Shown piece after piece: positions 13,217 through 36,469 of a DNA stretch of 41,544 nt. Made by a program: the position numbers and the translations under genes. Position 1 is the stretch's first letter. Each line of letters starts with the position of its first letter. The notes below the pieces were generated by a model that was not told the DNA's origin, did not search any database, and worked only from the letters and a program-made list of their open reading frames with translations. Source of the DNA: Deltaproteobacteria bacterium (GTDB lineage: Bacteria > Myxococcota_A > Polyangia > JAAYKL01); the NCBI GenBank assembly GCA_030595125.1, contig JAUVDV010000050.1, positions 1 to 41,544 of the forward strand, written 5' to 3'.

Positions 13217-13711
13217 CTACTCGAAGATGGCCAGGATTTCCTTTTCGATAGAGGCTTCCTTTTTTCTCAAGGAGAAGGCCAGTTCGGTCATCAGAAGGGA
13301 GCGCGCAGTGTCGAGAAGACGTCGCTCTCCGAAGGATAGTTCCTTGCCTGACCGAAGTCGATAGAGATCCCTCAAGACCCGGGCGACGTCGAAGGGCGAG
13401 CCGCTCTTCAGCATCTCCATGTACTCTCGATAACGTCGATTCCACGGCTGGGTCTTCACGGCCACTTCGTCGGTCTTCAGGATGTCCAGGACCTTTTTGG
13501 CATCCTTCCTGGAAATAAGGGGTCTCATGCCGGCGGTGGCGGCGGTTTCCACCGGGACCATTATTTTCATGTTGTTTTCTAAAATTTCGAGCACGTAGAA
13601 AGAGCGTTTCTGGCCGCCCAGGGAGCGCATTTGGATGTCGGTGATCTCTCCCACTCCATGGGCAGGGTAGACTGCTTTATCGCCCTTTTTGTAAGTTTTT
13701 GCGGTAGCCAT
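13217..13711 (-). CDS. cdnL: CarD/CdnL-family RNA polymerase-binding regulator
   Basis: A 164-residue protein, the same length as Myxococcus CdnL. The N-terminal Tudor-like RNA polymerase interaction domain starts KKGDKAVYPAHGVGEITDI and runs to about residue 65 (MKIMVPVETAATAGMRPLI). The C-terminal helical domain (about 70-164) includes the Trp of QPWNRRYREYMEMLKSG that in CarD/CdnL touches the promoter -10 edge, followed by ARVLRDLYRLRSGKELSFGE. Proteins of this family stabilise open complexes, especially at rRNA promoters. ATG 13711 is chosen by family N-terminus, although the nearest AGGAG is 14 nt away. The gene has its own promoter at 13804-13832. Confidence 0.92.
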   Translation of the reverse strand: MATAKTYKKGDKAVYPAHGVGEITDIQMRSLGGQKRSFYVLEILENNMKIMVPVETAATAGMRPLISRKDAKKVLDILKTDEVAVKTQPWNRRYREYMEMLKSGSPFDVARVLRDLYRLRSGKELSFGERRLLDTARSLLMTELAFSLRKKEASIEKEILAIFE

Positions 13712-13803
13712 CAGATTAATTGCAACTCCTGAACGCGTTTCCAATATATCCCCAAAAAAAACAGTTTCTCCGTCACCCGAGATACCGTTTCAAACGGGAA
13801 CGA

Positions 13804-14161: not shown

Positions 14162-15883
14162 ATGATTGGAAAGCGACTTCTCACCAGCGGGTTGACTCTT
14201 GCGGTTCTCCTCACCTTCGGGGTTGTGGCGGGCGCGCAGGACATGGTGTTCACAACCACGGATACCGGAAACGTGGCGGCGCCTCCGCCTCCGCCTTCCG
14301 GGCCACCGAGCGAGGCCTTGGCGAACGCGCTGAGGCTTTACCAGCAGGAGCACTACGGCCAGGCGGCCGTGCAATTTCAGCGTATTGTGCAGGGCGAGAC
14401 CGGAGACCAGCCGGCCAACGTCCAGAAGGCGCAGTTCTTCCTGGGCAAGTGCTTCTACCACCTGGGCTTCTTCCAGGCGGCCCTCGGTGTTTTCGAGGAG
14501 ATTGCCATGATGTCCACAGGGCATCTCTATTTCCAGACCACGTTGCAATGGCTGGCGCAGCTGTCCCGTGAGCTCCCAGAGCCCGCAGGAATCATCGGGC
14601 TGGTCGGTCGCTACGGCGACTCGGTTTCGGTGTTGCAGGAGTTCAATAAAAAAGAGACGAGTGATCTCTATAACGAGCTTCTTTACCTCATGGGTCGTTA
14701 CTGGTACCAGCAGGGCGAATTCGGCAAGGCCCGGGATTTCTTCCTGGAGATCGACAAGAGCGATCCATCGTACGTGAGCGCGGTGTTCTTTGCCGGCATC
14801 ACGTTTGTGCGTGAGCGCAAGGCCCAGCCGTCGACCAAGGCGTTTTTATCCATTGTCGACAAGTACGAGGACATTCTCTTCCTTTCCGATGAGGAGGAGC
14901 GGTTCCTCAATCTGGCCTGGTTGTCGCTGGCTCGTATCTATTATTCCACCAAGCACTGGGACAGCGCCGTGGAAGCCTGGAACCGCATCCCACAGTCGTC
15001 CGAGTATTATCTGGATGCCCAGTTCGAGGAATCGTGGGCCTATTTCCAGGTGGACATGTACGATCGCGCGTTGGGCAACATCCACACCATGAACTCCCCG
15101 TATTTCGATGGCTATTTCTATCCGGAGTCGGTCATCCTCAAGTCGGTTATCTTTTTTGACCAGTGCCTGTACGAGGACGCTCAGGAAACGGTCGTCAAAT
15201 TCACCAACAGGTACGAGCCTATCCAGCGGGAGCTGCAGGCTACCGTGACCAAGTTCCAGGACAACCAGCAGTTCTTCGAGTTCCTGCGCAAGATTCGGCA
15301 GATGCACGAACAGGGCGAGCTGGACAAGAGCCTCGAAGGCAGCGCGTCTGTCGGCACCGACGGCGTCTCAGCCGGCGCCGGCTCCACGCAGCAGCCCGAG
15401 AAGGTAATGGGTTTGTCCCCAGAGGTGCTGGCGGTCATCAAGGGCGCCCTCGACGACCGCACACTTCTTCGCAACCTCGAGTACGTCGAGGTGCTCGAGT
15501 CCGAGGAGAAGAAGCTGGCCAAGATGCCTCCCCAGTTCGTGAACGCGGCTGCCGGGCAGCGGATTGTCCAGGATATCGCAACCGCCAAGTCAGTGGCCAT
15601 CGACAACACCGGAAACCTGGCCCGGTCCAGGTACGAGCGCCTTCTTGTCGAAATTCAGGACCTGCTCAATCAGACCACGCGTATTGAGATCGAGATCCTC
15701 AAGGCCCTTCGCGGGGAGCTGGACCTCGAGATTCAGACGGAGCAGGAGACCTCGGGGCCGGTTGTTCAGCAATCCGAGATCAAGAGTGACGCCGAGCATG
15801 TGATCTGGCCGTTCGAGGGTGAGTTCTGGCGTGACGAACTAGGGTACTATCGGCAGCCGGTTGCCAGCCGGTGCGGGAGGTAA
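14162..15883 (+). CDS. Exported TPR protein, first gene of the Glt-like cluster
   Basis: A 573-residue periplasmic protein. Its signal peptide ends A-G-A at about residue 25, followed by a Pro-rich segment (A-A-P-P-P-P-P). TPR-type helical repeats cover about residues 50-370 (ALRLYQQEHYGQAAVQFQRI, AQFFLGKCFYHLGFFQAALGVF, LLYLMGRYWYQQGEFGKARDF). The C-terminal third is helical and charged and may be a coiled coil. ATG 14162 follows AAGGGG. It is 5 nt upstream of the large TPR gene and shares the promoter at 14009. In Myxococcus the Glt region also has TPR proteins next to GltD; I cannot assign a one-to-one counterpart. Confidence 0.85.
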   Translation: MIGKRLLTSGLTLAVLLTFGVVAGAQDMVFTTTDTGNVAAPPPPPSGPPSEALANALRLYQQEHYGQAAVQFQRIVQGETGDQPANVQKAQFFLGKCFYHLGFFQAALGVFEEIAMMSTGHLYFQTTLQWLAQLSRELPEPAGIIGLVGRYGDSVSVLQEFNKKETSDLYNELLYLMGRYWYQQGEFGKARDFFLEIDKSDPSYVSAVFFAGITFVRERKAQPSTKAFLSIVDKYEDILFLSDEEERFLNLAWLSLARIYYSTKHWDSAVEAWNRIPQSSEYYLDAQFEESWAYFQVDMYDRALGNIHTMNSPYFDGYFYPESVILKSVIFFDQCLYEDAQETVVKFTNRYEPIQRELQATVTKFQDNQQFFEFLRKIRQMHEQGELDKSLEGSASVGTDGVSAGAGSTQQPEKVMGLSPEVLAVIKGALDDRTLLRNLEYVEVLESEEKKLAKMPPQFVNAAAGQRIVQDIATAKSVAIDNTGNLARSRYERLLVEIQDLLNQTTRIEIEILKALRGELDLEIQTEQETSGPVVQQSEIKSDAEHVIWPFEGEFWRDELGYYRQPVASRCGR

Positions 15884-15888
15884 CGGGT

Positions 15889-18800
15889 ATGATTCGCAAT
15901 ATCGGATTGTTCACGTTCGTTGCAGTGATGGCGGCCTGCCTGGTCCTTTTGACCGCGCACCGGGCCGAAGCGGAGAAGAAATCCTCAACCCTGACGGACG
16001 AGGAGGTCTGCATTCCCAAGGCGGTGGAGAAAGAGGTTCTCGGCTGTCCCGAGGACATCGATCTCGCCAAGGGAAAACTCGGCGGCGCTGTCGGAACGAG
16101 CAAGGCCAAAAAAGAGAAGAAGAAAAAGAAGAAGATTGAGGGACCAAGCCTTGAGAAAGGCTTTGTTCAAGACATTATCAAGTCGTCCTTCACGCGTAAG
16201 CGCGAGGTTCGCAAGCTCGATATTCTCAAAAAGGAAATCAAGCTGATCCTGCGCCTCGCCAAGCAGACGTCCAACGATAACCCCGAGAAGGCGGAGATCC
16301 TCAAGCGCCTGGCCGACGCGTACAAGGAAATGTACGACCAGATCAACTTCATGGCGCGCGGCCTCGAGGAGAAGATTTTTCGGCAGAAGAAAAAGGCGGA
16401 CAAGGCCAAACTGAAGGCACAGCAGAAGGCCCTCGACAAGAAGGCCACCGCCTACCGGGAGAAATCGATCAAGGCATACGTGGAGATTCGCAACCATTTT
16501 CCGGACTATCCGGATTACGACGAGATTCTCTTCGCCATCGCCTACGAGATCGACCAGATGGCCTCTCAGCAGGAGAACAAAAAGAAGAAGGCGAGCTATC
16601 GAGAGCGTGCCCGGATATTCTATCAGGAACTCATCCGTAACTATCCGCGTTCCAGATTCATCCCCCATGCGTGGATGGCCTTCGGCGAATATTATTTTCA
16701 CGAGGCGCTGGACGTTGAGAGGGCGATGCGCGCCTACGAGAAGGTGGTCGAGTGGGGAGAGGAAAACAACCCCAACTACGTAGTCGCCATGTACTACCAG
16801 GCATGGTGTCTGTTCAACCTTCAGGAGTTCAAGAAGACCATCAACCAGTTCAACAAGGTGATTCAATACGCTGATGCGAACCCGGAGCACCGCGAGGCAC
16901 AGGTGGTGGCCAAGCGCTCACGTATGGAAATGGTCGGAGCGTTTTCCAAGATCGGCAACCCTGCCCAGGCGTGGAAGTTCTTCCAGCGGGTCGGGGGCAA
17001 GCTGTCTCATGCCATGCTCGATAAGCTCGCCGGCCTCTATTACGATGACGGTCACTGGGCCGACGCCATCATCGTGTTCCACGAGCTCGAGAAGCTGGAG
17101 ATCGAGAACTTCCGCGGCAACGGGGGCGACGACCTTTGCCACTACCAGACCATGGTCACCAACGCGGTCATCAGTTCCGGGTCCAAAGACGACCAGGTGG
17201 TCGAAATCAAGCGCCAGATCGGCCTGTCACAGAGATTCGCGGGCGAGAAGCACGACGCCGCAAAGATCAAGAAGTGCAACCAGGACTCCATCGCGATAGC
17301 CTGGGACCAGTCGACCCAGTGGCACCTGGAGGCCGTGGGCAGCGAGTCCGCGCCGGGTACAAAAGATCATGACACAATGAAGTTGTGCATCGCCATGTAC
17401 GATGAGATTTTGGCCAAGTATCCCGGTCTGGACACTATTGAAGTCGAGGGTTTCGATGACAAGACCAGGCCCAGCCGCTACCGCGTTGCGTTCTACAAGG
17501 CGGAGCTGTACTGGACCATGGAAGACTGGGCAAACTGCGCGCCCTCCTTCGACGCTGTTGTCGACATGGATCCTGCCGGGGAATACACGGCCAGCGCGGC
17601 CTATGCGGCGGTGCTCTGCTATAACAAGGTTTACGTCCAGGAGCGCGGCGACAAAGACCGTAGCCGAAAGCACAAGCTCAAGACCGCCGACAAGTCCGGT
17701 CTCAAGTGCGACAAGACCTGCAAGAAGTGCAAGAAGAAGGAGTGCAAGGGAAAGAAGGGAAAAGACAAAAAGAAGTGCTTCAAGAAGTGTGAAAAGGGCG
17801 AAAGAATCGTTCTTGAAGTCCGCCCGCTCACCCCTCTCGAAAAGGGCATTCTCAAGTCATACAATCGATATGTTTGTTTCGTCACCAAGGGTGAAGATCT
17901 CATAAACATCAAGTATCGGCGAGCCAGAATCTATTACGAGGCAAACATGTTCGTCGAGGCAGCGGTCCTGTTCAGGGATATCGCTGTCAATCATTCTACG
18001 GACGAGATCGCGGTCTACGCGGCCAATCTCTACCTCGATTGTCTGAACGCTCTTGGGAGCATGGTCGAAAAACCGATCCCCTCCTGCTACGACAACCTCT
18101 CGGACATCGTCGACCTGTTCATCGACACCAGCAAGAAACCTGGCGTGGATCTGATGAAGGACGAGGATTTCGCCAACCAGATCAAGTCGCTGAAGGTGGG
18201 CGTCATGAGGAAGAAGGCAGAGTCTCTCACCATGCGCAGCCGCTTCAAGGAGTCGGCGGAGATTTATCTCGATATTTATCGCAATTACACCGGTGTCTAC
18301 GATGAGCGCGGAATGTGCGAGGTGCTGTTCAACACAGCCATCAACCTGGAGTCCGCGCGTCTCGTCATGTCAGCCATCAAGGTGCGCGAGAAGATGATCG
18401 AACTCTACCCCAAGTGCGAGCACTCCAAGAAGGCGGCTTACTTCATCGGACAGAACTATCACGCGCTGCAGTCATTCTCCATGGCGGCCGATAATTACGT
18501 GTCGTTCGCCAAGAAGTACTCCGGCGAGGACGAGGCCCCGGAGGCGCTCTCCAACGCTGTCATGTTTTACATCGGTCTGGGTAAACCGGATAGGGCCTTC
18601 TCAACGGTCAAGACCTTCGAGAAAAACTATTCGGGGCGTCGGACGGCCGAGACGGCCACAGTGGTGTTCAGCGCCGGCTACATTTACATCAACGATGACG
18701 AATGGGACAAGGCGCGCAAATGGTACGGCTCGTACCTCAGACGATACTCAAAGGCCAAGCTTGTCGATGAGCAGGTTCAAGCCCACGTGATAATCGGCGA

Positions 18801-19743
18801 TTCGTATTGGAATGCAAAGCGGAGAGATACGGCCAAGGCTCTCAAGTCCTACAAAAAGGCTGTGGCTGTTCACGACAAGGGCAAGGCTACGGTCACCGAG
18901 AACAAGCGCAAGGCTTCAATGTTAATCGCTCTTGCGAAGGCCAAGTATCAGATTGCCGAGGTCAGGTATTTTGCGTTCATGAAGGTGAAGTTCCCCGATT
19001 TCGCCGGCACCAAGAAGACCTCGGACAAGATCACGAAATGGTGGAAGAAGGAACAAGGCCCGGAGAAGATCAAAGCTTCTGAGAAGTGGGCCAAGGATAG
19101 GCGTCGACTCGCCAGGTGGGGATACTACGATGAGGGCAAGCCGGTGCGCGATCAAGTAAAGGAAGTCAGAAAAGAAGAGAAGAAAGAAGCTCTCGACATT
19201 CAGTTCAACTACTGGTCGCTACACAAGCTCAAGCCGTGGATCGAAAAGAAGGCGGGTCTGCTCGAAGAGACAACCAAGCTGTTTGCCGAGGTGGCCGCGA
19301 TCCATATCCCCGAGTGGGAAATGGCCGCCGCTGCGCGCGCGGGTGACATGCAGCTGCAGTTCATGAACGCGCTCTATGATTCTCCGCTTCCGCCTTCATT
19401 CAAGGGTGATCAAGAGCTCATCGATATTTACCGAGGCGCTATGGACGAAAAGGCAAAGCCTTATCGTGACGGCGCCGTCGGTGGTTTCGCACACTGTCTC
19501 AACATCTCCACCAAGGTCAGGTGGTTCAATGAGAACTCTTTGCGTTGCGAGCGCGAGCTCAGCAAACTGGAGCCTCTGAAATACCCGATATCGCAGGAGA
19601 TGCGAGTACAACCGAAGTTTGAGTTCAGTTTCTGGTCCAGGCCCGAGCCCGTACTGGCGCTCGAGACCGAGGCCGAGAAGCGAGAGAAAAAATTGACGGC
19701 ATCTGCGGCTGAGATTTCTGCCAAGTCCGCAGAGTCCAAGTAG
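15889..19743 (+). CDS. Large periplasmic TPR protein, GltD/AgmU-like
   Basis: A 1284-residue exported protein with a signal peptide (residues 1-29, ending A-E-A) and many TPR-type repeats over most of its length, including FPDYPDYDEILFAIAYEIDQ, ALDVERAMRAYEKVVEW and MFVEAAVLFRDIAVNHSTDE. Size, export and place just before the TPR lipoprotein fit GltD (AgmU) of the Myxococcus gliding machine, a periplasmic scaffold. Residues 605-640 are an unusual Lys/Cys-rich insert with Cys at 607, 611, 614, 619, 630 and 634. Lys-rich runs also occur near 75-85. ATG 15889 follows GGGAGG with suitable spacing; the GTG at 15871 would spoil the signal peptide. The C-terminus is Ala/Glu/Lys-rich. Orthology is inferred from layout and needs alignment. 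Confidence 0.85.
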   Translation: MIRNIGLFTFVAVMAACLVLLTAHRAEAEKKSSTLTDEEVCIPKAVEKEVLGCPEDIDLAKGKLGGAVGTSKAKKEKKKKKKIEGPSLEKGFVQDIIKSSFTRKREVRKLDILKKEIKLILRLAKQTSNDNPEKAEILKRLADAYKEMYDQINFMARGLEEKIFRQKKKADKAKLKAQQKALDKKATAYREKSIKAYVEIRNHFPDYPDYDEILFAIAYEIDQMASQQENKKKKASYRERARIFYQELIRNYPRSRFIPHAWMAFGEYYFHEALDVERAMRAYEKVVEWGEENNPNYVVAMYYQAWCLFNLQEFKKTINQFNKVIQYADANPEHREAQVVAKRSRMEMVGAFSKIGNPAQAWKFFQRVGGKLSHAMLDKLAGLYYDDGHWADAIIVFHELEKLEIENFRGNGGDDLCHYQTMVTNAVISSGSKDDQVVEIKRQIGLSQRFAGEKHDAAKIKKCNQDSIAIAWDQSTQWHLEAVGSESAPGTKDHDTMKLCIAMYDEILAKYPGLDTIEVEGFDDKTRPSRYRVAFYKAELYWTMEDWANCAPSFDAVVDMDPAGEYTASAAYAAVLCYNKVYVQERGDKDRSRKHKLKTADKSGLKCDKTCKKCKKKECKGKKGKDKKKCFKKCEKGERIVLEVRPLTPLEKGILKSYNRYVCFVTKGEDLINIKYRRARIYYEANMFVEAAVLFRDIAVNHSTDEIAVYAANLYLDCLNALGSMVEKPIPSCYDNLSDIVDLFIDTSKKPGVDLMKDEDFANQIKSLKVGVMRKKAESLTMRSRFKESAEIYLDIYRNYTGVYDERGMCEVLFNTAINLESARLVMSAIKVREKMIELYPKCEHSKKAAYFIGQNYHALQSFSMAADNYVSFAKKYSGEDEAPEALSNAVMFYIGLGKPDRAFSTVKTFEKNYSGRRTAETATVVFSAGYIYINDDEWDKARKWYGSYLRRYSKAKLVDEQVQAHVIIGDSYWNAKRRDTAKALKSYKKAVAVHDKGKATVTENKRKASMLIALAKAKYQIAEVRYFAFMKVKFPDFAGTKKTSDKITKWWKKEQGPEKIKASEKWAKDRRRLARWGYYDEGKPVRDQVKEVRKEEKKEALDIQFNYWSLHKLKPWIEKKAGLLEETTKLFAEVAAIHIPEWEMAAAARAGDMQLQFMNALYDSPLPPSFKGDQELIDIYRGAMDEKAKPYRDGAVGGFAHCLNISTKVRWFNENSLRCERELSKLEPLKYPISQEMRVQPKFEFSFWSRPEPVLALETEAEKREKKLTASAAEISAKSAESK

Positions 19744-19753
19744 GAGGTTACCC

Positions 19754-21337
19754 ATGCTAAAGAACGCAAAAATCATCGTTCGGGTTGCTGGGATTCTGAT
19801 AGCACTCGTAGTTCTCGGTTGCGGCGGCGCCAAGTTAGGGGGCGGTGCAGACGGCGAGACAGGTGGAGTGGACGCCGACGGCAAGCCAATAATCACCAAG
19901 GAAGCGCGAAAGGACTTCGACAAGGCAGTCGAGGCCTACAATGAGGCCAAGAAGGAAGGCTGGAACGAGAAGAACTGCGAGTCCGTGGCAAAGAAATTTC
20001 GGGCCGTGGCCAAGGGGCACAACAACATGGTCGAGGCCCTGTACAACGTTGGCTGCATATACAACGAATGCAAAATGGAAGCCAAGGCAGGGGCCGCGTT
20101 CAAGGACACGCTCAAGAAGCACGAGAAGCATCAGCCGTCCATGATCCATCTGGCCATCATCGCTCTCGAGGCGGGAAAGGCGGAGGATGGGCAGGAAAAG
20201 CTGAAGGAAGCCATCCTCGCCGGCCGAAATACGCTCGATGCAGTGCCGGCATACAACCTGGCCGCCACAATCCTCAGAGCCAAGGCCAAGGCGGGTGACG
20301 GAGATGCCTGGAAGAAGGCTCAGAAAAACCTGAGAACCGCCCTGGCTATCGATTCCAAGTACATGCCGGCATTATACCAATTGACGATGCTCTACTACGA
20401 CATTGCAGTAGAGTTGAAGAAGCCGTCGTATCTGACGCTGGCAAGCCTGGTGTTCAATCAGGCCGTCAAGCTCGATCCCGAGTACGCGCCCAACTATCAC
20501 GCGCTGGGCCTCATCAATCTCCAGAAGAAAGAGCTGGTCGAGGCGCTCAAGGCGTTCGAGGCGGCCTTTCAGAAGGACCCGAATCTCTACGAGGCCTACA
20601 TGAGCTTCGGCGCCATCAACCTGAACTTCCGGGGTTATGCCGAATCGAAGACCGCATTCGAAAAGGCTATTGGGCTCAAGCCGGGAAGTTACGATGCGCA
20701 TATGGGGCTTGGAGTGGCCGCCCGCGGACTGGGCGACTTCACGCTCGCCAAGGCGGAGTACAAGAAGGCCGCAGAGATCGATCCGGCAAGAACCGACTAC
20801 ATCTTTAACCTCGGGCTGTTGGAGATGGATTACACCAACGACGGATCGCCGGAGGGTTACGAGAAGGCGAGCAAGGTCTTCGAGAAGTTCCTGAAGAAGG
20901 CGACACCCGCTCACAAGAAGGATCCTGACGGCAAGAGGGGCAAGCAGATCTCGTGGTACAAAAAGGCGGAGAAGCGCATCAAGTCATGCGGAAAAGCCGC
21001 CAAGCAGATTCGCGAGGCTCTGAAGGAGATGGCCGAGCTCGAGAAGATGGCTGCCGAGCAAGCCATAATCGCCAAGGAAGCCGAGGAGATGCAGAAGAAG
21101 GCCGAGGAGCTCGCCAAGGAGGAAGAGGCGGGTAAGGTTGCCAAGGGTGAAGAAGTGGACGAGGCGGCCATCGAGGCAGAGCTCGCGGCGGAGGAGAAGG
21201 CAGCAGAGGAAGCGGCCAAGGCCGAGAAAGACGCCGAGAAGGCCGAAAAGGAAGCCGAGAAGGCCGAAAAGGAAGCCGAGAAGGACAAGAAGGCTGCCGA
21301 GGACAAGGAAAAAGGTACCGTGGACTTGGAGGGATAA
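19754..21337 (+). CDS. TPR lipoprotein, GltE/AglT-like
   Basis: A 527-residue predicted lipoprotein (V-L-G-C, Cys23) with TPR repeats in about residues 55-380 (ALYNVGCIYNECKMEAKAG, PNYHALGLINLQKKELVEA, LYEAYMSFGAINLNFRGYAE, SYDAHMGLGVAARGLGDFT). The last 110 residues are a highly charged Ala/Glu/Lys coiled coil containing a duplicated 7-residue block (A-E-K-E-A-E-K, encoded by two exact 21-bp units at 21242-21283). In Myxococcus, AglT/GltE is the outer-membrane TPR lipoprotein of the gliding complex and sits in this same order. AGGAGG lies 6 nt before the ATG; the spacing to the upstream gene is 10 nt. Confidence 0.86.
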   Translation: MLKNAKIIVRVAGILIALVVLGCGGAKLGGGADGETGGVDADGKPIITKEARKDFDKAVEAYNEAKKEGWNEKNCESVAKKFRAVAKGHNNMVEALYNVGCIYNECKMEAKAGAAFKDTLKKHEKHQPSMIHLAIIALEAGKAEDGQEKLKEAILAGRNTLDAVPAYNLAATILRAKAKAGDGDAWKKAQKNLRTALAIDSKYMPALYQLTMLYYDIAVELKKPSYLTLASLVFNQAVKLDPEYAPNYHALGLINLQKKELVEALKAFEAAFQKDPNLYEAYMSFGAINLNFRGYAESKTAFEKAIGLKPGSYDAHMGLGVAARGLGDFTLAKAEYKKAAEIDPARTDYIFNLGLLEMDYTNDGSPEGYEKASKVFEKFLKKATPAHKKDPDGKRGKQISWYKKAEKRIKSCGKAAKQIREALKEMAELEKMAAEQAIIAKEAEEMQKKAEELAKEEEAGKVAKGEEVDEAAIEAELAAEEKAAEEAAKAEKDAEKAEKEAEKAEKEAEKDKKAAEDKEKGTVDLEG

Positions 21338-21340
21338 AAA

Positions 21341-21360
21341 AAGTTCTTTTTTGGGAACTT
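21341..21360 (+). other. Small hairpin between GltE-like and GltF-like genes
   Basis: AAGTTC (21341-21346) pairs with GAACTT (21355-21360) around an 8-nt T-rich loop, just after the stop codon. It is too weak and lacks a T-tract after the stem, so it is more likely an mRNA processing or stability element than a terminator. Confidence 0.35.
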
Positions 21361-21424
21361 ATTGAAAAGTAGATTGTCTATCGCTGCGAAAGCGCGATTT
21401 GCAGAAAGAAGGAAGGGAAGAAAA

Positions 21425-21667
21425 ATGAAGATCCTCACTGGCATCGTGGCTGGAGTAGGTTTCATGCTTCTGGTCGGATCCGCTTTTGCTCAGGTTTCTT
21501 ACGCGGAGAAAACCGAATACTCGTTTGATGACGACGTGGTCACCGGTGACCTCGTCAGACCGGATGGAGAGTTGACCGTTGTTCGTAAGAAGGGAAAACA
21601 GCGAAGCCTGATTCGGGTGCGTCAGCATTTCATCCCGGAGATGCTGAAGTCCGTGGAGGACATCTAG
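21425..21667 (+). CDS. Small exported protein, GltF-like
   Basis: An 80-residue protein with a signal peptide (residues 1-22, ending A-F-A). The mature part is short and well structured: YSFDDDVVTGDLVRPDGEL, then VVRKKGKQRSLIRVRQHFIPE and a final MLKSVEDI. I recall this V-T-G-D-L-x-x-P-D-G / L-I-x-V-R-x-x-F-x-P-E pattern from small proteins of the gliding-motility gene cluster, and it sits between the GltE-like and FHA genes as GltF does in Myxococcus. The function of GltF is not well defined. ATG 21425 follows GGAAGGGAAG; longer frames upstream have no signal peptide start. Confidence 0.78.
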   Translation: MKILTGIVAGVGFMLLVGSAFAQVSYAEKTEYSFDDDVVTGDLVRPDGELTVVRKKGKQRSLIRVRQHFIPEMLKSVEDI

Positions 21668-21736
21668 TCCGAATCGGGGAATCGGCGGTTTGAGAAGGGC
21701 TGGTTTGCCAGCCATGAACAAAGATAGGAAAAGGCC

Positions 21737-23641
21737 ATGAGTGCACTGACAATCAATTTCAAGATCCTCAAAGATGGTGAAGTCGTCAAGGAGGAGTCTC
21801 TCTCCAGGGACGTGATCAAGATCGGCAGAATGGCGTCAAGTCATCTGCAGATTGACGATGAAGGCATCTCAAGAATGCATGCGGTCATCGAGGTATCCGG
21901 ACCTGGTGATGTGCACATCATCGATCTCGGGAGCGCCGAGGGGACTATTGTCAACGATAAGAAGGTAAACAAATCGGTCCTGGCGAGCGGGGACAAGATC
22001 ACCCTCGGAGGAGTGGAGATCGAGGTGACCTTCTCGGCCGGAGTGCAAGCGGCAGCCGCGCCCGTGGCCCAGGCCGCTCCTCCCCCCCCGGTGCCCGGAG
22101 TGGCGCCGATGTTCGGGGCTCAGGCTGCCGCTTCGGCACCTGCAATACCTGCGGCGGTTCCATCCACCGTTGGCGTTACCGCCGGATCGATGTTCATAGA
22201 TCTGAACACCGTAGAGGATGTCACCAAGCAGGCAATCGAGGTTGTGGTGATGTGGAACGGGTCAGTTCTTCAGGTCAAGCATTTCAAGGCAGACGAGAAG
22301 AAACCCGAGAATTTCTATATCGGTGAGGATTTTTCCTGCGATTTCCCGATTCCCGCAGAGGAACTGAAGGGAGCCACAAAGGTTCCGTTGGTCGTCAATC
22401 ACGTGGGAGGTGGGGCCACTGTCAGCATCCTCCCGGGCGGAAGCGGTGACATAACCTACGAGGACGGCAATCGGATTTCGATGGCGGACATGGTAAGCGG
22501 GGGCAAGGCGCAATCGTCGGCCGAGGTTCCAGGCGGATACAGTTTCGCGCTGCCTCCCAAGGCTCGTACCAAGATGGACTTCGGTCCGTGGACGTTCCTT
22601 GTAAACGCCGTACCCAACCCCAAGAAGTTCGTGGCCCCCATTCAGCTGGATTGGACGTCGCAGATCTACACCGGGTTCTCCATGATTCTGCACGCAGTGT
22701 TTCTGTTCCTTATCTACTTTATCCCGCCGGATCCCGAAGGCCTGTCTCTCGACTTGCTCGATGAGAACAACCGGTTCATCAAGTACATGCTCAATCCTGC
22801 GGAGATCCAGCAGGACGAAGTTCCCGAGTGGCTGAAGAAAGACAAAAAGGACGAGGAGCAGGGCGGTAAAGGAAAGCGTCATAAGGGCGAGGAAGGCCAG
22901 ATGGGTAAGCGCGACTCCAAGAAGACCGATAACCATTACGGGATCAAGGGGCCGAAGGACAACCCGAACCCGCACATGGCGCGCTCGATGGCCAAGGAGA
23001 TGGCAAAGTCAGCCGGTATCCTCAGCTACCTTTCGGCGGCAAATGCACCCACATCGCCCTTCGGTCAGGATACGGCTCTCGGTATCGATCCCGAGAATGC
23101 GCTGGGCGCCCTGATGGGCAACCAGGTCGGAGAGAACTTCGGCTACGGTGGTCTCGGATTGCGTGGTACCGGTCGTGGTGGTGGTGGTACCGGTGAGGGT
23201 ACTATCGGATTGGGTAATCTCAACACCATCGGTCACGGCGGCGGCGGCGGATCCGGTTCCGGATACGGACGCGGCGCGGGTGGCCTCGGCGGACGGCGCG
23301 GCAGGGCTCCCAGAATTCGTTCCGGCGCGGCGATGGTCAAGGGCTCCCTGTCCAAGGAAGTCATCCGAAGGATCGTCCACAGGCACATTAATGAGGTCAA
23401 GTTCTGTTACGAGAAACAACTTGCCCAGCGTCCTGACCTGTCGGGTCGTGTCTCAATCAAGTTCATTATCTCCGGTACGGGCGCAGTCCAGATGGCAGCC
23501 GTTGCTTCATCCACATTGGGCAACGCGCAGGTCGAGAACTGCATCGCACAGGCGGTGCGTCGGTGGACGTTCCCGCAGCCCGAGGGCGGAGGAATCGTCA
23601 TCGTGACTTATCCGTTCATGCTCACATCGCCGGAGGGCTAG
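21737..23641 (+). CDS. FHA - transmembrane - AgmX/PglI C-terminal protein, GltG-like
   Basis: A 634-residue inner-membrane protein. Residues 22-98 are a forkhead-associated domain with G30-R31, S45, H48 and N73 in place (KIGRMASSHLQI, ISRMHAVIEV), expected to bind phosphothreonine in the cytoplasm. An Ala/Pro linker (105-145) leads to a second cytoplasmic globular part, then one TM helix at about 309-331 (YTGFSMILHAVFLFLIYFI). The periplasmic part has a Lys-rich stretch, a Gly-rich tract (about 470-530) and a C-terminal TonB-like AgmX/PglI domain (about 535-634) with C557 (KFCYEKQ) and C602 (VENCIAQ), a likely disulfide. The arrangement matches GltG/PglI of Myxococcus, which links cytoplasmic signals to envelope parts. 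It is the last gene of the cluster; no gltH, gltI or gltJ follows. Confidence 0.9.
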   Translation: MSALTINFKILKDGEVVKEESLSRDVIKIGRMASSHLQIDDEGISRMHAVIEVSGPGDVHIIDLGSAEGTIVNDKKVNKSVLASGDKITLGGVEIEVTFSAGVQAAAAPVAQAAPPPPVPGVAPMFGAQAAASAPAIPAAVPSTVGVTAGSMFIDLNTVEDVTKQAIEVVVMWNGSVLQVKHFKADEKKPENFYIGEDFSCDFPIPAEELKGATKVPLVVNHVGGGATVSILPGGSGDITYEDGNRISMADMVSGGKAQSSAEVPGGYSFALPPKARTKMDFGPWTFLVNAVPNPKKFVAPIQLDWTSQIYTGFSMILHAVFLFLIYFIPPDPEGLSLDLLDENNRFIKYMLNPAEIQQDEVPEWLKKDKKDEEQGGKGKRHKGEEGQMGKRDSKKTDNHYGIKGPKDNPNPHMARSMAKEMAKSAGILSYLSAANAPTSPFGQDTALGIDPENALGALMGNQVGENFGYGGLGLRGTGRGGGGTGEGTIGLGNLNTIGHGGGGGSGSGYGRGAGGLGGRRGRAPRIRSGAAMVKGSLSKEVIRRIVHRHINEVKFCYEKQLAQRPDLSGRVSIKFIISGTGAVQMAAVASSTLGNAQVENCIAQAVRRWTFPQPEGGGIVIVTYPFMLTSPEG

Positions 23642-23752
23642 AACCCTTAGCCACTCATTCTGAAGGGTCTCGCCTTCTCCCTGAATTAACAACAGCATCA
23701 ATACAAAGACAGGAACGTTGACACCGGTTCACTCCTTGTTAAAGTCCTTCCA

Positions 23753-25012
23753 ATGAACAGCTTGAGAACCGTCAAGGGAATGCACGATATCCTGCCCGAG
23801 GAGATGCCCAAGTGGCATTTTCTCGAGGAGACCTTTCGCGAGCTGGTCGACAGGTTCGGTTACCAGGAGATCCGAACTCCCACGGTCGAGCCGCTGGAAC
23901 TCTTCGTGCGCGGGATAGGCGAAGTCACTGATATCGTCGAGAAAGAAATGTACGCTTTTGAGGACAAGGGCGGCGCCAGGCTCGCCCTTCGCCCGGAGGG
24001 GACAGCCTCGGCCATCCGATCGTATATTCAGCACAACATCGGCGGGCGCCAACCGATCTCCAAGTTCTACTATATAGGCCCTATGTTTCGTCGCGAGCGT
24101 CCTGCGAAGGGGAGGTATCGGCAGTTTTACCAGGCTGGTGCCGAGCTGATCGGAGTGGAGGAACCCACCGCGGATGCAGAGATAATCGACATGGCCGTGC
24201 AGTTCGTGGAGGCTCTGGGAATTGAAAATGTCAGTGTTCAAATAAACAGCCTGGGTGACCAGAAGACGCGCCCGTTATTTCGAGATGCGCTTGTCGAGTA
24301 TTTCGCCGGAGATCTAAACAAGCTATGCCCGGATTGTCGACGAAGACTTCAGACCAACCCCTTGAGGGTGCTCGATTGTAAGGTGCCCGATTGCATAGAG
24401 ACGGCAGCCGGGGCGCCATCTGTGCTGGATCATCTCGAAGGGGAATCCGCAGCTCATTTCAATGAACTGAAGAGACTGCTCGACGAAAACGGGACGCCTT
24501 ATCAGGTGGCAAAGAAGATGGTGAGAGGCCTCGACTACTATACAAGAACGATATTCGAGATACAGGGCGAATCAGATACCCTGGGATCGCAGGCCACGAT
24601 CGTCGGTGGCGGGCGTTACGACAACCTGGTGAAAGATCTCGGAGGAAAGCAGACTCCCACAATCGGGTTTGCCTTTGGAATAGAGAGGCTGCTTCTCATG
24701 TTGGGTTCAGGAGCATCCAGAAGTGAACGACCCACGATCTACGTTGCGGGCATAGGCGAGGGCGGGCTGGACAGGGCGGTTTCCCTGGCCAGAACCTTGA
24801 GGAAGGCGGGACACAAGATCGAAGTGTCGTACAAGGAGGGAAGTCTGAGGTCGCAGCTGAAGCGCGCGGATCGGTACGGCTCGGTCATCGCCATAATCGC
24901 GGGAGAAGATGAAGCGGCGAGGGGCAAGGTGACCTGGCGAAATATGAAGGATGGATCTCAAGAAGAGGTGTCGTTGTCCGATCTCGACAAACGTCTAGAG
25001 GCGCACAAGTGA
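23753..25012 (+). CDS. hisS: Histidyl-tRNA synthetase
   Basis: A 419-residue class II synthetase that charges tRNA-His. The N-terminus VKGMHDILPEEMPKWHFLEE is typical. LALRPEGTASAIRSYIQH precedes motif 2 (FRRERPAKGRYRQFYQAGAE). The HisRS-specific loop is RGLDYYTRTIFEI, and motif 3 includes GFAFGIERLLLML. The C-terminal anticodon-binding domain spans about 325-415. The gene starts 111 bases after the Glt-like cluster, with a TTGACA (23718-23723) but no convincing -10 at standard spacing. Its stop overlaps the GTG start of the next gene. Confidence 0.96.
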   Translation: MNSLRTVKGMHDILPEEMPKWHFLEETFRELVDRFGYQEIRTPTVEPLELFVRGIGEVTDIVEKEMYAFEDKGGARLALRPEGTASAIRSYIQHNIGGRQPISKFYYIGPMFRRERPAKGRYRQFYQAGAELIGVEEPTADAEIIDMAVQFVEALGIENVSVQINSLGDQKTRPLFRDALVEYFAGDLNKLCPDCRRRLQTNPLRVLDCKVPDCIETAAGAPSVLDHLEGESAAHFNELKRLLDENGTPYQVAKKMVRGLDYYTRTIFEIQGESDTLGSQATIVGGGRYDNLVKDLGGKQTPTIGFAFGIERLLLMLGSGASRSERPTIYVAGIGEGGLDRAVSLARTLRKAGHKIEVSYKEGSLRSQLKRADRYGSVIAIIAGEDEAARGKVTWRNMKDGSQEEVSLSDLDKRLEAHK

Positions 25013-26817
25013 TAGACAGGTACACCACCGCCGTATTGTCAGCTTTAATGCTGGCTATGATTCTCCTTCCATGCCCGGTAATGGCGGATGATTCAACTTC
25101 AGCCGCGAGCCTCGAAGAGCCCGACGACGAGAAGACAGGGGAGTCTTCCGACAAGACTGCGGTTGGGTTACACGGCATCGAGTTGAAGGAGCTGGAGGAG
25201 GACTATGAGCCCAAGCCAAAGCGGTTCATTATTCCGCCCTACTACTCCGAGAAATCCGAGCGCGTAAAAACGACGGCCGTTTTTCCTCTGTTCTACTCCA
25301 GGCAGAGAACCGGGGAGGGTGCGCGGAAAGATCTTGGGCTCATGCCCTTCTACTGGAGATACCGTGAGGGACCTTCGAGCGCCGATGTGTATTTCCCGCT
25401 GTATTGGCGTTTTCGAGATCCGGAGTTCAAGACGGATATAATTCCACCCGTTTACTACAATCGAGACGATCATGGATACAACTTGGGCCTGGCGCCGCTC
25501 TTGTTCCTCGGAAAAGACGAACGACGCAAGTCCGGATATCAGGTATTGCCGCCGTTGTTCTGGAACTTCAAGAACAAGCACGGCGGGTTCATGTGGGCTG
25601 GATGGTACTACGATTACCGAAATCGCGGCGACAGTGATCGCGGCGTTCCGCCACTGTTCTTTTCGGGCCGTAACAGGGACAAGACCTATTTGACGATATT
25701 GCCTCCGCTTTTTTGGCGATTCACCGACGAGGTGAACTACAAGACCACGACGGTGCTGCCGCCCCTTTTCTTCAAGACCAGGGAGAACGGCTGGAGCGCC
25801 GGCCTCGTGCCGTTATTGTATTTCGCCAGGGACGAGAACTGGGCGAGAACGCTGATCACGCCTCTCTATTATGGAAGCAGATGGGGTAAAGGACGGAGTC
25901 ACTATTTTCCGCCGTTGCTCACGTACTATCGTCATAGCCCAAACCTTTCGCAAGGTGGCGTCGCAATCTTTTATCACTGGTACGAGAAAGAAGGCGATTA
26001 CCTCAAGATGTACTCGCCCCTCTTGTGGCGATATGGCAACGAGAGGACCGACGACAGGAGCCTGCTGGTTCCGCCGATCTTCTACAAGCGCGACACTCCT
26101 GTTTCCGACGACACCATGGTCGGGCTCGTTTACTGGAATTTTCACGAGCACTATCGGGAGCGCACATTCGCCCTGATGCCCATCTTCGGTCACAACTGGA
26201 GCCTGCACGAGAAAAGATGGCGCACATGGGTGGCGCCGACCTTCGACGTCGGGGTTCACCCGGACGGCTATCACGCGCGCATTTATCCGATCTTCTACCT
26301 GGGCCGTGGAAAGCGGGACAACCACCTGGTGCTCGCGCCGATCTTCTGGCGATTCGTGGATGAGGAAGACAGGAACACGGTTGTTTTTCCCCTGATCTGG
26401 AACTTCCGGGATCTGGCGCACAATTCTCTGGACAGGGCGTTCTTCCCGCTCTGGTGGCAGTTCGACGATTATCGCCGCCATGACTACAAGCGTGTGGCCT
26501 TCCCGCTGGTGTGGGACTTCAACGATGAGAAGAACGACGAGAGGTCCACGGTGGTGGCGCCGCTGTTATGGAGAGATCGCGATCCGGTCAGCACCATGAC
26601 CGGGGTCTTCAATGTTGTCTTGCACAAGGGCGAGATCAAGGAGAACCCGTTCTGGACGTTCCAGATCTTCCCGTTTATTGCGATGGGTAAACCTCCCGCG
26701 CCGGAAGGCGCATACTGGTCGTTCCTGGGCGGGCTCGCCGGCTGGCGCCGCCAGGGCAGCACCAAAGAGTTGAAAATCCTCTGGATACCCTTCGACCTGA
26801 CAAAGGACGAGGAATAG
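25009..26817 (+). CDS. Exported protein built of about 23 Pro-Leu-Phe/Tyr-Trp repeats
   Basis: A 602-residue protein I do not recognise as a named family. A signal peptide ends V-M-A at about residue 26, then comes an acidic linker (30-70). From about 85 to 530 there is a repeat of roughly 20 residues, each holding a core like P-L-F/Y-F/Y-W-x-F/Y-x-D/R (PPLFWRFTDE, PLYWRFRDPE, PPLFFKTREN, PIFWRFVDEE, PLIWNFRDLA, PLLWRDRDPV). About 23 copies can be counted. The alternation of aromatic and charged residues points to beta strands, so an outer-membrane or surface beta structure is likely. The start is GTG 25009, overlapping the hisS stop by 4 nt, so the two are co-transcribed. No catalytic motif is seen. 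Confidence 0.75.
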   Translation: MIDRYTTAVLSALMLAMILLPCPVMADDSTSAASLEEPDDEKTGESSDKTAVGLHGIELKELEEDYEPKPKRFIIPPYYSEKSERVKTTAVFPLFYSRQRTGEGARKDLGLMPFYWRYREGPSSADVYFPLYWRFRDPEFKTDIIPPVYYNRDDHGYNLGLAPLLFLGKDERRKSGYQVLPPLFWNFKNKHGGFMWAGWYYDYRNRGDSDRGVPPLFFSGRNRDKTYLTILPPLFWRFTDEVNYKTTTVLPPLFFKTRENGWSAGLVPLLYFARDENWARTLITPLYYGSRWGKGRSHYFPPLLTYYRHSPNLSQGGVAIFYHWYEKEGDYLKMYSPLLWRYGNERTDDRSLLVPPIFYKRDTPVSDDTMVGLVYWNFHEHYRERTFALMPIFGHNWSLHEKRWRTWVAPTFDVGVHPDGYHARIYPIFYLGRGKRDNHLVLAPIFWRFVDEEDRNTVVFPLIWNFRDLAHNSLDRAFFPLWWQFDDYRRHDYKRVAFPLVWDFNDEKNDERSTVVAPLLWRDRDPVSTMTGVFNVVLHKGEIKENPFWTFQIFPFIAMGKPPAPEGAYWSFLGGLAGWRRQGSTKELKILWIPFDLTKDEE

Positions 26818-26955: not shown

Positions 26956-27798
26956 ATGATCGTTATCAAATATCTCTCATTAATTATAGTGCTTGCGACC
27001 GTGCTGGTTTTCGGCGGGTGCTCAGACGGTTCTTCGTCGAAGCCGGACGGCGGGATCGACTCTTCAACCGACACGGACACCGATACCGATACTGATACCG
27101 ATACCGACACGGATACGGATACCGGCCCGGTCGAGTGCGATCTTGGGGAGTACATCGGCGATTACGAGATCTTCGAACAATCGGATATTGCAGCCATCGC
27201 GGAATGCACATCGATCTCGGGAAACCTTGAAATCAAGTGCTCGTCATGCACCGACTTGGACGGTCTAAGCGCTCTCACCTCGGTGGGCGGGTACTTGGAG
27301 ATCTCCCACAACTACGCCCTCACCAACTTGGAAGGGCTGAGTGCAATCACATCGCTGGACGGGACCTTGTTCATCTTGAACAACGACGCCCTCACCAACT
27401 TGGACGGCCTGAGTGGCATCACCTTTGTTGGTGGGAGCTTGTCAATCTCCGGTAACCCAGCCCTTACCAACCTTGACGGTCTGAGCAACATCACCTCGGT
27501 GGGCGGGTACTTGTCAATTTGTTACCACGACGCCCTCACCAACCTGACCGGTCTGAGCGCCCTCACCTCCGTTGGTTGGACCCTGTACATCGACGGAAAC
27601 GACGACCTGGCGAACCTGGACGGTCTGAGCGCCCTCACCTCGGTGGGTGATGAATTTTATGTCTTCTTTAACTTTGTTCTTCCCGACTGCGAGGTATGCG
27701 ATCTGCTGGACCAGCTTACTACCGTACCAACATCGATAACTGTAACTGACAACCTCAACGACACATGCACGCCGGTTCCGGCAAACTGCCCCCCTTGA
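26956..27798 (+). CDS. Lipoprotein with Asp-Thr stalk and LRR-like repeats
   Basis: A 280-residue predicted lipoprotein (F-G-G-C, Cys22). Residues 38-56 are an alternating Thr-Asp stalk, a low-complexity spacer that probably lifts the head off the outer membrane. From about residue 75 to 230 there are six or so repeats of 24 residues with the pattern A-L-T-N-L-D-G-L-S-x-I/L-T-S-V-G-G-x-L-x-I-x-x-N, like receptor-L-domain or BspA-type leucine-rich repeats. The copies are also similar as DNA (72-bp unit), which points to recent duplication. Cys residues near the end (CEVCDLL, DTCTPVPANC) cap the array. ATG 26956 has GGAGG upstream. Likely role: surface adhesion or recognition; this is inference. 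Confidence 0.85.
   Translation: MIVIKYLSLIIVLATVLVFGGCSDGSSSKPDGGIDSSTDTDTDTDTDTDTDTDTDTGPVECDLGEYIGDYEIFEQSDIAAIAECTSISGNLEIKCSSCTDLDGLSALTSVGGYLEISHNYALTNLEGLSAITSLDGTLFILNNDALTNLDGLSGITFVGGSLSISGNPALTNLDGLSNITSVGGYLSICYHDALTNLTGLSALTSVGWTLYIDGNDDLANLDGLSALTSVGDEFYVFFNFVLPDCEVCDLLDQLTTVPTSITVTDNLNDTCTPVPANCPP
27064..27122 (+). repeat. GAYACN tandem repeat coding for the Asp-Thr stalk
   Basis: About ten 6-bp units of the GATACC/GACACG type code for alternating Thr and Asp. Third-base variation between units shows they are not freshly slipped copies, unlike the array at 41401. Confidence 0.85.
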
Positions 27799-34231: not shown

Positions 34232-34648
34232 ATGGACCACGATCGCGCAAGAGAACTATTCACTGCATATCACGATGAGGAACTGTCCTCCAGTGAAGTC
34301 GAGGAGCTGGAGTCCCACCTTGCGGCCTGTAAAGAATGCTCGGAGGAGTGGGATACCTATCGCAGGACCATGGAGGAAATATCGGGCCTGCACAGGTTCG
34401 CCGCCCCTGGAGGTATGACTGAGGCGGTCGAACAGAAGATCAAGCGGCGCAGCAAGGGCAGGTTTTTCGGTGAGCAGCGCTCCTTCAGCACTCAGTTCGC
34501 GATAGTTTCCTTCATCCTCATCCTGCTGTTCATGCTGGCCTACCTGTTGATGACCGAGGTCACGGAGATTACGGTCCTCGAGGAAGACGATCCGATCACG
34601 GACGGTAAAACCCCTACGGCGCAGGAGAGAGACGCAGGGGCAAGATAA
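34232..34648 (+). CDS. Zinc-finger anti-sigma factor (membrane-bound)
   Basis: A 138-residue protein. The zf-HC2 zinc motif H29-x3-C33-x2-C36 (ESHLAACKECSEEW) lies in the N-terminal anti-sigma domain. A TM helix at about 89-108 (FAIVSFILILLFMLAYLLM) anchors it in the inner membrane, with only about 30 residues in the periplasm. It starts 2 nt after the ECF sigma gene and should bind that sigma factor. Its 3-prime end overlaps the convergent anti-sigma gene by 35 bp. Confidence 0.85.
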   Translation: MDHDRARELFTAYHDEELSSSEVEELESHLAACKECSEEWDTYRRTMEEISGLHRFAAPGGMTEAVEQKIKRRSKGRFFGEQRSFSTQFAIVSFILILLFMLAYLLMTEVTEITVLEEDDPITDGKTPTAQERDAGAR

Positions 34649-35819
34649 GCTCGATCGCTCCGTCCGAAGGTGGCGGAAAGACCATCCCCTTGAACGTCCT
34701 GGACAGACAGGTCTCGAGTTCGGGCCACTTTTCGGTGCCCTTCAGGCGAACTTTCGAGACATGCCCCTTCTCGTTCACGTCGAGCCGGGCCGTAACCGAG
34801 ATGGTCGTATACAGGGATGGGAACCTCTTGAGAGATGTCTCGTAACAATTGGTGAGTTTGGGTTTGGTGTGGCTCATGACCTCGCGGACGACACGTTTTG
34901 ATAGTGTTCCTGCGGGGCGGTAGAGCCTGGTCTCCAGCGCACCTGCGTCAGCGTGGATCGGATCTCCTGTGGGAGATGGGGTCTCCATGAGGGGGAGGAG
35001 GCGTTGCCTGTCGATGGTCGATGAGGAATTCGGCAGTCGCCACTTGTCGACGGAGAGTGAAAACTGATCCGTGTCGGAGATCGGCAGGACCTCGCCGGAT
35101 CGGACCCGAATCTTCGGGCTCGCGCCGTCACCGATGGAAAACTCAGCACTGCCGGAGAAGATGGCGAACGAGGCGCCGGCCGCAAGAACGATCAACTCGC
35201 TTTCGAGAGCGCCGGGCGGAACGGTAATAAGAAAGACACCTCTTTCCAGGCTGACGGTCGGGGTTTGAATGTTGGATGATACAAGATCCAGCACCGAGGA
35301 AGGACCCATCTCCAGTCGCGCATCGAGCCCCAGAGCGAGGCGAACGCCGCCGTTGTCGTCGGTGCCGACCGGGGCTCCGCAGTGAAGAGCGGTGCCCTTG
35401 GGAGTGCAGCGAACCGCCCCAACGGTGTCGGCGACTGTGATCTTCAGTTGCTCAGGGAGAGTCGCGGACGGTGTGGAATGCGGTAAAGGTTTCACATGGA
35501 GATCGGGCACAAGGAGGGCCAGGGCCACAAGTGCAGCAGCAGCAGTGGTCAGGGCCAACGGGAACCATGCTACTCCGGCTGTTTCGGTTTCTTTCACCTG
35601 ACGGATCGCGCGCTCTATCCCCGCGTCGATCGCGCTCCAGTCCGGCTCGACAGGAGCAAGCGCGGCGGCTGCGGCATCCTTGAGCGCCGTCAAGGTCGAG
35701 ACCTTCGCCGTGCATGCCGGGCACTCGACAAGATGTGCGTTCAGGCGAACCCTGTCATCATCGGCGAGGTCGTGGTTGACGAGGGCGAAGGCCTCGCGAT
35801 CTTTGAGGCATCGCGTCAT
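34614..35819 (-). CDS. Anti-sigma factor fused to an AgmX/PglI-type C-terminal domain
   Basis: A 401-residue membrane protein. The N-terminus has a zf-HC2 zinc motif H29-x3-C33-x2-C36 (NAHLVECPACTAK). One TM helix is at about 83-106. The periplasmic middle (120-260) is beta-rich and resembles a FecR-type domain (VSLERGVFLITVPPGA, IRVRSGEVLPI). The end (306-398) matches the C-terminal domain of the FHA protein at 21737: L-S-K-x-V-x-R start, C325 in N-C-Y-E and C371, a 46-residue spacing versus 45 there. It overlaps its sigma gene by 4 nt (ATGA), so the two are translationally coupled. It should hold the sigma factor and sense an envelope partner through the tail. Confidence 0.87.
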   Translation of the reverse strand: MTRCLKDREAFALVNHDLADDDRVRLNAHLVECPACTAKVSTLTALKDAAAAALAPVEPDWSAIDAGIERAIRQVKETETAGVAWFPLALTTAAAALVALALLVPDLHVKPLPHSTPSATLPEQLKITVADTVGAVRCTPKGTALHCGAPVGTDDNGGVRLALGLDARLEMGPSSVLDLVSSNIQTPTVSLERGVFLITVPPGALESELIVLAAGASFAIFSGSAEFSIGDGASPKIRVRSGEVLPISDTDQFSLSVDKWRLPNSSSTIDRQRLLPLMETPSPTGDPIHADAGALETRLYRPAGTLSKRVVREVMSHTKPKLTNCYETSLKRFPSLYTTISVTARLDVNEKGHVSKVRLKGTEKWPELETCLSRTFKGMVFPPPSDGAIELILPLRLSPAP

Positions 35820-36469
35820 CTGGATTCCCCCTCGAAGAGCGAGCCCTCGAACGCGGGTTCCTTTGCGAGGCGCTCGTAAAAGGCCTTGCGGGCGTAAAAC
35901 AACCTCGTGCGAACGGTCAGCGCGGGCGCACCGACAACGTCGGCGATCTCCTGGGAAGACATTCCCTGAAAGTCAGCCAGGATCAACACCAGCCTCTTTT
36001 TCGGGGCCAGCGTATCCAGAACTCGTTGCACTGCGGCTTGCCGATCCCCGAGCATGGCCTCCTGTTCCGGCGTATCGGGTCCCTCATCAGGATTTGAAGC
36101 GACGTTGCGGGTGGGGTCGTCATTGAAGTGGAGGCGAATCCTCCGGCCCTTCTTCCTGATGTACTGGAGGGTTACGTTGAAAGCCACCCGGTGGATCCAG
36201 GTGGAGAGTTTCGACGTTCCCCTGAAACTGTTGATGGATTTGAAAACCTGGAGAAAGGCGTCCTGGACTACCTCGTCGCGGTCGGCGGCGTTGTTGATCA
36301 TCCGGGAGACGACACCGTACACAATCAGGCGATGCGCGTGATATATCTCGCGAAATGCATCCGAATCACCTGCCTTGCAGCGTTCTACTAGATCCACATC
36401 CGGATCATCGCCCGCATCCGTGTCTGGGTGAAAGGTGTATTCCATGAATACTGCAACGGCGGCTACCAT
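35816..36469 (-). CDS. ECF-type RNA polymerase sigma factor
   Basis: A 217-residue ECF sigma factor. Region 2 (about 25-95) includes DSDAFREIYHAHRLIVYGV, EVVQDAFLQVFKSINSFRG and LSTWIHRVAFNVTLQYIRKK. Region 4 (about 145-200) includes PKKRLVLILADFQGMSSQEI and GAPALTVRTRLFYARKAFYE. The linker is acidic. ATG 36469 has GGAGG about 11 nt upstream; ATG 36445 is a shorter alternative without a ribosome site. Its stop overlaps the anti-sigma start. The pair is convergent with the first sigma/anti-sigma pair. Confidence 0.9.
   Translation of the reverse strand: MVAAVAVFMEYTFHPDTDAGDDPDVDLVERCKAGDSDAFREIYHAHRLIVYGVVSRMINNAADRDEVVQDAFLQVFKSINSFRGTSKLSTWIHRVAFNVTLQYIRKKGRRIRLHFNDDPTRNVASNPDEGPDTPEQEAMLGDRQAAVQRVLDTLAPKKRLVLILADFQGMSSQEIADVVGAPALTVRTRLFYARKAFYERLAKEPAFEGSLFEGESR

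Follow-up and report, generated by a model that had tools for sequence, protein, structure and literature searches.

What can a Glt-like trans-envelope module do when no motor gene lies beside it? The question is raised by a 41,544-nucleotide stretch of DNA (the window; contig JAUVDV010000050.1 of assembly GCA_030595125.1) from an uncultured Deltaproteobacteria bacterium of the phylum Myxococcota_A. In it, positions 14162-23641 hold a block of five consecutive plus-strand genes, followed by hisS at 23753. An initial annotation, made from the sequence alone, had described five Glt-like genes in a Myxococcus-like order with hisS directly behind them, and the coordinates, domains and family matches all fit this description. 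We consider it likely that the block encodes a Glt/Nfs-type force-transmitting surface-transport complex, which would use another AglRQS-type motor. In Myxococcus xanthus, a single AglRQS motor drives both the Glt transducer, which serves gliding, and the Nfs transducer, which wraps the spore coat (PMC3858216, PMC3169522). Since Glt and Nfs share one motor there, having no linked motor does not mean having no motor.

Family membership of the five genes

Four of the five proteins have a Glt family as their best curated match. Protein 1 matches GltC (NF033756; 4.4e-72, 243.7 bits), protein 3 GltE (NF033758; 5.7e-26, 91.4 bits), protein 4 CglF (NF033764; 7.6e-19, 67.5 bits) and protein 5 GltG (NF033760; 1.1e-133, 447 bits); the NCBIfam equivalog cut-offs of these models are 450, 225, 90 and 650 bits, respectively. 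No unrelated TPR or FHA family gave a better match to any of the four, and the AgmX/PglI tail of protein 5 scores 112 bits with its own model (NF033768), above the cut-off of 40. The first gene, which had been taken for an extra exported TPR protein placed before the set, is thus a GltC homologue (4.4e-72) and part of it. CglF and GltF are two names for one protein (PMC4488436), which has been described as restricted to Myxococcales and Bdellovibrionales (PMC3169522); the window carries it at a score under the cut-off, and the gene in the same position of the relative genome G060 scores above it.

Protein 2 matched none of the NCBIfam Glt models. It is 25% identical over 873 amino acids (aa) to the gene in the gltD position of G060, where the flanking GltC and CglF both exceed their curated cut-offs, and we assign it as a putative GltD through position and homology. 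With homologues of GltC, GltD, GltE and GltG standing together, and with a GltG that carries an FHA domain, one transmembrane (TM) helix and an AgmX/PglI tail, the block belongs, judged by sequence, to the Glt/Nfs-type trans-envelope transducers at superfamily level. The genes are as follows.

14162..15883, plus strand: gltC/nfsC-like, exported TPR protein of 573 aa (NF033756, signal peptide, AlphaFold model)
15889..19743, plus strand: gltD/nfsD-like, large exported TPR protein of 1284 aa (TPR content, position, homology); an alternative GTG start is possible 18 bases upstream of 15889
19754..21337, plus strand: gltE/nfsE-like, TPR lipoprotein of 527 aa (NF033758, lipobox VLGC)
21425..21667, plus strand: gltF/cglF/nfsF-like, small exported protein of 80 aa (NF033764)
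21737..23641, plus strand: gltG/nfsG-like protein of 634 aa, with FHA domain, second beta-rich domain, TM helix, glycine-rich linker and AgmX/PglI (TonB-like) C-terminus
23753..25012, plus strand: hisS, the boundary gene, in the slot that a TPR lipoprotein and a giant TPR gene occupy in other families; its own promoter-like site lies at 23718-23745

Signal peptides are predicted for proteins 1, 2 and 4, and the lipobox is that of protein 3. Upstream, carD occupies 13217-13744 and no gene is called between it and gltC.

Predicted structures are consistent with these assignments. The AlphaFold model of the window GltC (predicted local distance difference test score, pLDDT, 76.5) is a TPR superhelix with a long C-terminal helix. 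That of GltG (mean pLDDT 65.9, lowered by the linker) shows an FHA fold at residues 3-103 (Z 17.6), a second beta-rich domain at about 160-295, a single TM helix at about 308-332, a disordered glycine-rich linker and an ordered tail. When this model was re-aligned structurally, the alignment covered the FHA domain only (residues 1-102), and searches of the PDB with GltG and with a protein of AglR type matched FHA domains and TolQ/ExbB only.

Relative to a locus of the same genus, the ratio of nonsynonymous to synonymous substitution rates (dN/dS) is 0.056 for gltC, 0.084 for gltD, 0.12 for gltE and 0.065 for gltG, the range over the five genes being 0.00-0.12, and 0.075 for hisS. GltF is an identical protein in locus L045 although dS is 0.21. 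By this measure the five genes are under purifying selection like that on hisS, and in use; we rejected the possibility that they are pseudogenes. The family E-values, the order kept in about 30 loci and the low dN/dS together exclude a chance string of TPR genes.

An ancestral gene order, split after gltG

We gathered related loci by their similarity to the window GltG, so that what follows on intact operons in other families describes a sample and not a census; genes in the GC-rich loci were called by codon usage, as a guard against shadow open reading frames. Below, C denotes a contig of the window's own assembly, G a relative genome and L a locus. Genes C, D, E and F lie upstream of a gltG-type gene in 30 of the 45 loci with at least 7.5 kb of upstream sequence, which bears out the conserved linkage expected of a genuine Glt-like set; the remaining loci are mostly orphan gltG-like paralogues. 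The C-D-E-F-G order also recurs in distant families (G060, G065, G137, G091 and G156). Across the phylum, 196 of 284 genomes contain a match to the GltC model at E <1e-60, a threshold that the window's own copy narrowly misses in that search.

What follows gltG differs between families. There are 29 loci in which E and F precede G and the sequence extends at least 3.5 kb beyond it; in 22 of these, gltG is followed by the gene of a TPR lipoprotein (about 290 residues) and, after that, by a giant TPR gene. In the other seven, hisS follows instead; all seven belong to the window's family and are all of its testable loci, none of the other 22 has hisS there, and no locus has both. We interpret the ancestral operon as gltC-D-E-F-G followed by the TPR lipoprotein and the giant TPR gene, which by comparison of these loci was split after gltG in the window's family, with its first five genes left beside hisS. 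The gene yraN lies upstream of the block in many loci, four of them from the window's family, which argues that the block was inherited at its old site and that the split after gltG came later. A recent horizontal acquisition was rejected, the block being common to family members, of which four have yraN upstream as other families do. The suggestion that this is an ancestral version of the machine therefore needs dividing: the gene order appears to be ancestral, whereas the stripped-down neighbourhood, gltG and then hisS, is on the same comparison a derived trait of the window's family.

The block can be set beside three known systems. With M. xanthus Glt (G1 gltD-J, G2 gltK-B-A-C, and AglRQS) it shares homologues of GltC, D, E, F and G, the D-E-F-G order, the domain layout and the predicted locations. 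It differs in lacking adjoining gltH, gltI, gltJ and motor genes, in scoring under the equivalog cut-offs, in having hisS after gltG, and in the place of gltC, which heads the block here and lies in the second cluster (G2) of M. xanthus, a species whose Glt and Nfs machines consist of homologous sets of parts (PMC3169522). Across the phylum gltC heads the block, and we read it as a founding member of the set. The Nfs system of M. xanthus (nfsA-H) likewise keeps C-D-E-F-G together in one cluster and is a Glt-like transducer whose motor is encoded elsewhere, whereas the window block has no adjoining nfsA or nfsB barrel gene and no nfsH. The Agl/Glt core complex of gamma- and deltaproteobacteria, with gltC, D, E, G and aglR, Q, S in one region (PMC3169522), contains the same four transducer families, and the window's own genome has a complete one on contig C2. 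The window block differs from it in having gltF, which is not in the core, and no motor genes, and its GltG is a separate lineage.

Motor and partner genes elsewhere in the genome

The initial annotation pointed out that GltH, GltI, GltJ and the Agl motor are not in the window. This is correct, yet elsewhere the genome holds a giant TPR gene in the GltI role, a GltJ-like gene, MglA and an AglRQS-type motor. The assembly comprises 203 contigs and is 95.3% complete, and our searches of it were not exhaustive; most genomes compared are metagenome bins, so that single absences are weak.

Contig C170 carries, side by side, a TPR lipoprotein of 291 aa and a giant TPR protein of about 3880 aa. Over about 2940 residues, the giant protein shares 39% identity with the linked gene of L061. 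By its size, its TPR content and its linkage to gltG elsewhere, we take it as the probable counterpart of GltI; no GltI model matched it, and no M. xanthus GltI entered the comparison. GltI is a large scaffold that acts with GltG (PMC13104615). A 507-residue protein on C50 has the GltJ layout of zinc ribbon, GYF domain and AgmX tail and matches GltJ at 110 bits against a cut-off of 450. This model (NF033761) reached its cut-off in 0 of 59 genomes and its matches scatter over zinc-ribbon and tail domains, and we did not score GltJ presence or absence from it. On C186, mglB and mglA are adjacent, with mglB upstream, and MglA aligns across its full length with its M. xanthus namesake (2.9e-105 to 6hjh).

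The assembly contains seven ExbB/TolQ-type genes; only on C2 does one ExbB occur with two ExbD as an AglRQS-type set, which is not linked to the window block. There (L014 6367-18261) it forms part of a complete core cluster, gltC-D-E-aglR-exbD-exbD-gltG (C-D-E-R-Q-S-G), preceded by an extracytoplasmic function (ECF) sigma gene and a probable anti-sigma gene. In the counterpart of G002 (L146), the cluster is followed by a Poly_export/SLBB lipoprotein (3.6e-19); by its sequence, this gene can also be made out in L014 itself and in L143 of G065.

A motor can nevertheless stand beside gltG within the window's family. In the member G006 (L051), gltG adjoins an AglR-Q-S triplet. In locus L080, a distance of about 6 kb separates a triplet from another gene of gltG type. 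In a small ExbB tree, the G006 AglR and the stand-alone AglR of G033 and L080 form one group, distinct from the C2 type and from that of a further motor cluster, cluster B. When sought in 14 family genomes, the G006-type motor was found only in G006; the best matches in the other 13, at about 34-40% identity, are what is expected of the C2 and cluster-B types. Its apparent absence from 13 genomes is firmer than single absences would be.

Cluster B (L139 303-7107 and L140 2806-15647, in the same-genus G002 and in G005) comprises R-Q-S, a GltG-like protein, an OMP_myx_plus barrel, GltC-like and GltD-like proteins, and a surface lipoprotein with TSP3 repeats related to MtsD/CglD. It was not found in the window's assembly, at the completeness given above. 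In a GltG tree, the window GltG falls with the cassette lineage, apart from the core and cluster-B GltGs.

Other genes were noted in passing. At 142-894 of L020, the very start of contig C142, lies a fragment resembling GltD (52% identity over 65 residues), which may be the last part of a further gltD copy truncated by the assembly. L016 (11317-12750, minus strand) holds an orphan GltG paralogue in which the second domain, TM helix and tail are present and the FHA domain is missing; orphans like it in other genomes adjoin ECF-sigma-like genes. In the window itself, at 34614-36469 (minus strand), an ECF sigma factor gene adjoins an anti-sigma protein with a C-terminal AgmX/PglI (GltG-type) tail, an unusual fusion. 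Proteins of L017 (5588-8095, minus strand) and L018 (5859-10115, minus strand) match a marine sortase-target (VIT/VWA) family, the former with a C-terminal GltG-type tail. In L034 (5831-8387, minus strand), the GltJ-like gene adjoins genes whose translations read by eye like the export-apparatus genes fliQ and fliR. Behind hisS, the window encodes a 602-residue exported protein (25009-26817), rich in PLFWRF-like repeats and of no clear family, kept in the family loci that reach that far, and then a lipoprotein (26956-27798) with a long Asp-Thr (DTDTDT) run after the lipobox, a type very common at many loci of this genome.

Possible functions of the block

In the mechanism that we favor, GltG would span the inner membrane, its FHA domain facing the cytoplasm and its TonB-like tail the periplasm, and would take up motion from a proton-driven AglRQS-type stator. 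GltD, GltE, GltF and GltC would pass this motion across the periplasm to outer-membrane partners, and a surface cargo, polymer or adhesin, would be moved. We infer both the force transfer and the cargo from M. xanthus Glt and Nfs, where AglR interacts with GltG and NfsG (PMC3858216) and where AglR-GltG contact and proton-driven movement have been described (PMC3169522, PMC3858216). Most likely, the block shares the C2 motor, because that is the only AglRQS-type motor in the assembly, or else uses a cluster-B motor missing from it.

Several observations weigh against this explanation. The GltC, GltE, CglF and GltG matches all fall under their equivalog cut-offs (244 of 450, 91 of 225, 67.5 of 90 and 447 of 650 bits), so that neither membership in the M. 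xanthus Glt gliding machine at equivalog level nor a one-to-one function with it follows. Within the window's genus, the block has no linked motor. The trees contain no M. xanthus Glt or Nfs sequence and do not separate the two subtypes. CglE (NF033755) gave no match over its cut-off in the window's own genome, in which GltA, GltB, GltH, GltK, CglB and AglZ were not searched for.

Sequence does not distinguish between gliding and polymer transport. Nfs is itself a Glt-like system outside motility (PMC3169522, PMC3858216), which makes the non-motility role proposed in the initial annotation plausible. That the block serves to transport or package a surface polysaccharide, in the way that Nfs handles the spore coat, and shares the C2 motor is to us a real possibility, if short of probable: the sole AglRQS-type motor of the assembly sits in the C2 core cluster, whose G002 counterpart carries the Poly_export/SLBB lipoprotein, and C-D-E-F-G is the order implied by the nfsA-H cluster too. 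However, no sugar gene adjoins the window block, and the order, being ancestral, cannot alone tell Nfs from Glt. It is possible, though doubtful, that this is a true gliding machine in which the giant TPR protein, the GltJ-like protein and MglBA still work together and the surface parts were overlooked or have diverged. The close MglA homologue with MglB upstream, the protein of GltJ architecture and the giant TPR gene with its lipoprotein partner speak for it; the GltJ score far under its cut-off, the missing CglE match and the genus without a gltG-linked motor speak against it, and MglA also serves type IV pili and polarity. We think it unlikely that the block works with cluster B and that this motor was lost from the assembly through incompleteness. 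The cluster does occur in a same-genus genome and in G005, and the assembly is fragmented and incomplete, but cluster B has GltC-, GltD- and GltG-like proteins of its own and looks self-sufficient.

A more speculative, rather improbable extension of the explanation that we favor is that the transducer of the window's family changed motors. The gltG-linked stand-alone AglRQS would have been lost in all but one of the sampled genomes, the transducer would now run on the core-complex motor tied to polysaccharide export, and the conserved TPR lipoprotein would be an undescribed partner of the giant TPR scaffold.

That the gliding and spore-coat machines arose through parts added to a conserved core has been proposed (Luciano et al. 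2011, PMC3169522; Wartel et al. 2013, PMC3858216), and the same papers proposed, in 2011 and 2013, that Glt-like modules without gliding serve other surface transport. Three points are new here: the ancestral order is wider and includes a TPR lipoprotein that stands between gltG and the giant gene; the split at gltG is specific to the window's family; and the motor type linked to gltG is nearly absent from that family. A limited literature search found no paper on any of the three. The C-D-E-F-G-lipoprotein-giant TPR order recurs in far-apart families, and one family shows its dismantling while the five window genes are still under selection. These genomes thus offer natural test cases for which parts must stay linked, and for whether one motor serves several transducers.

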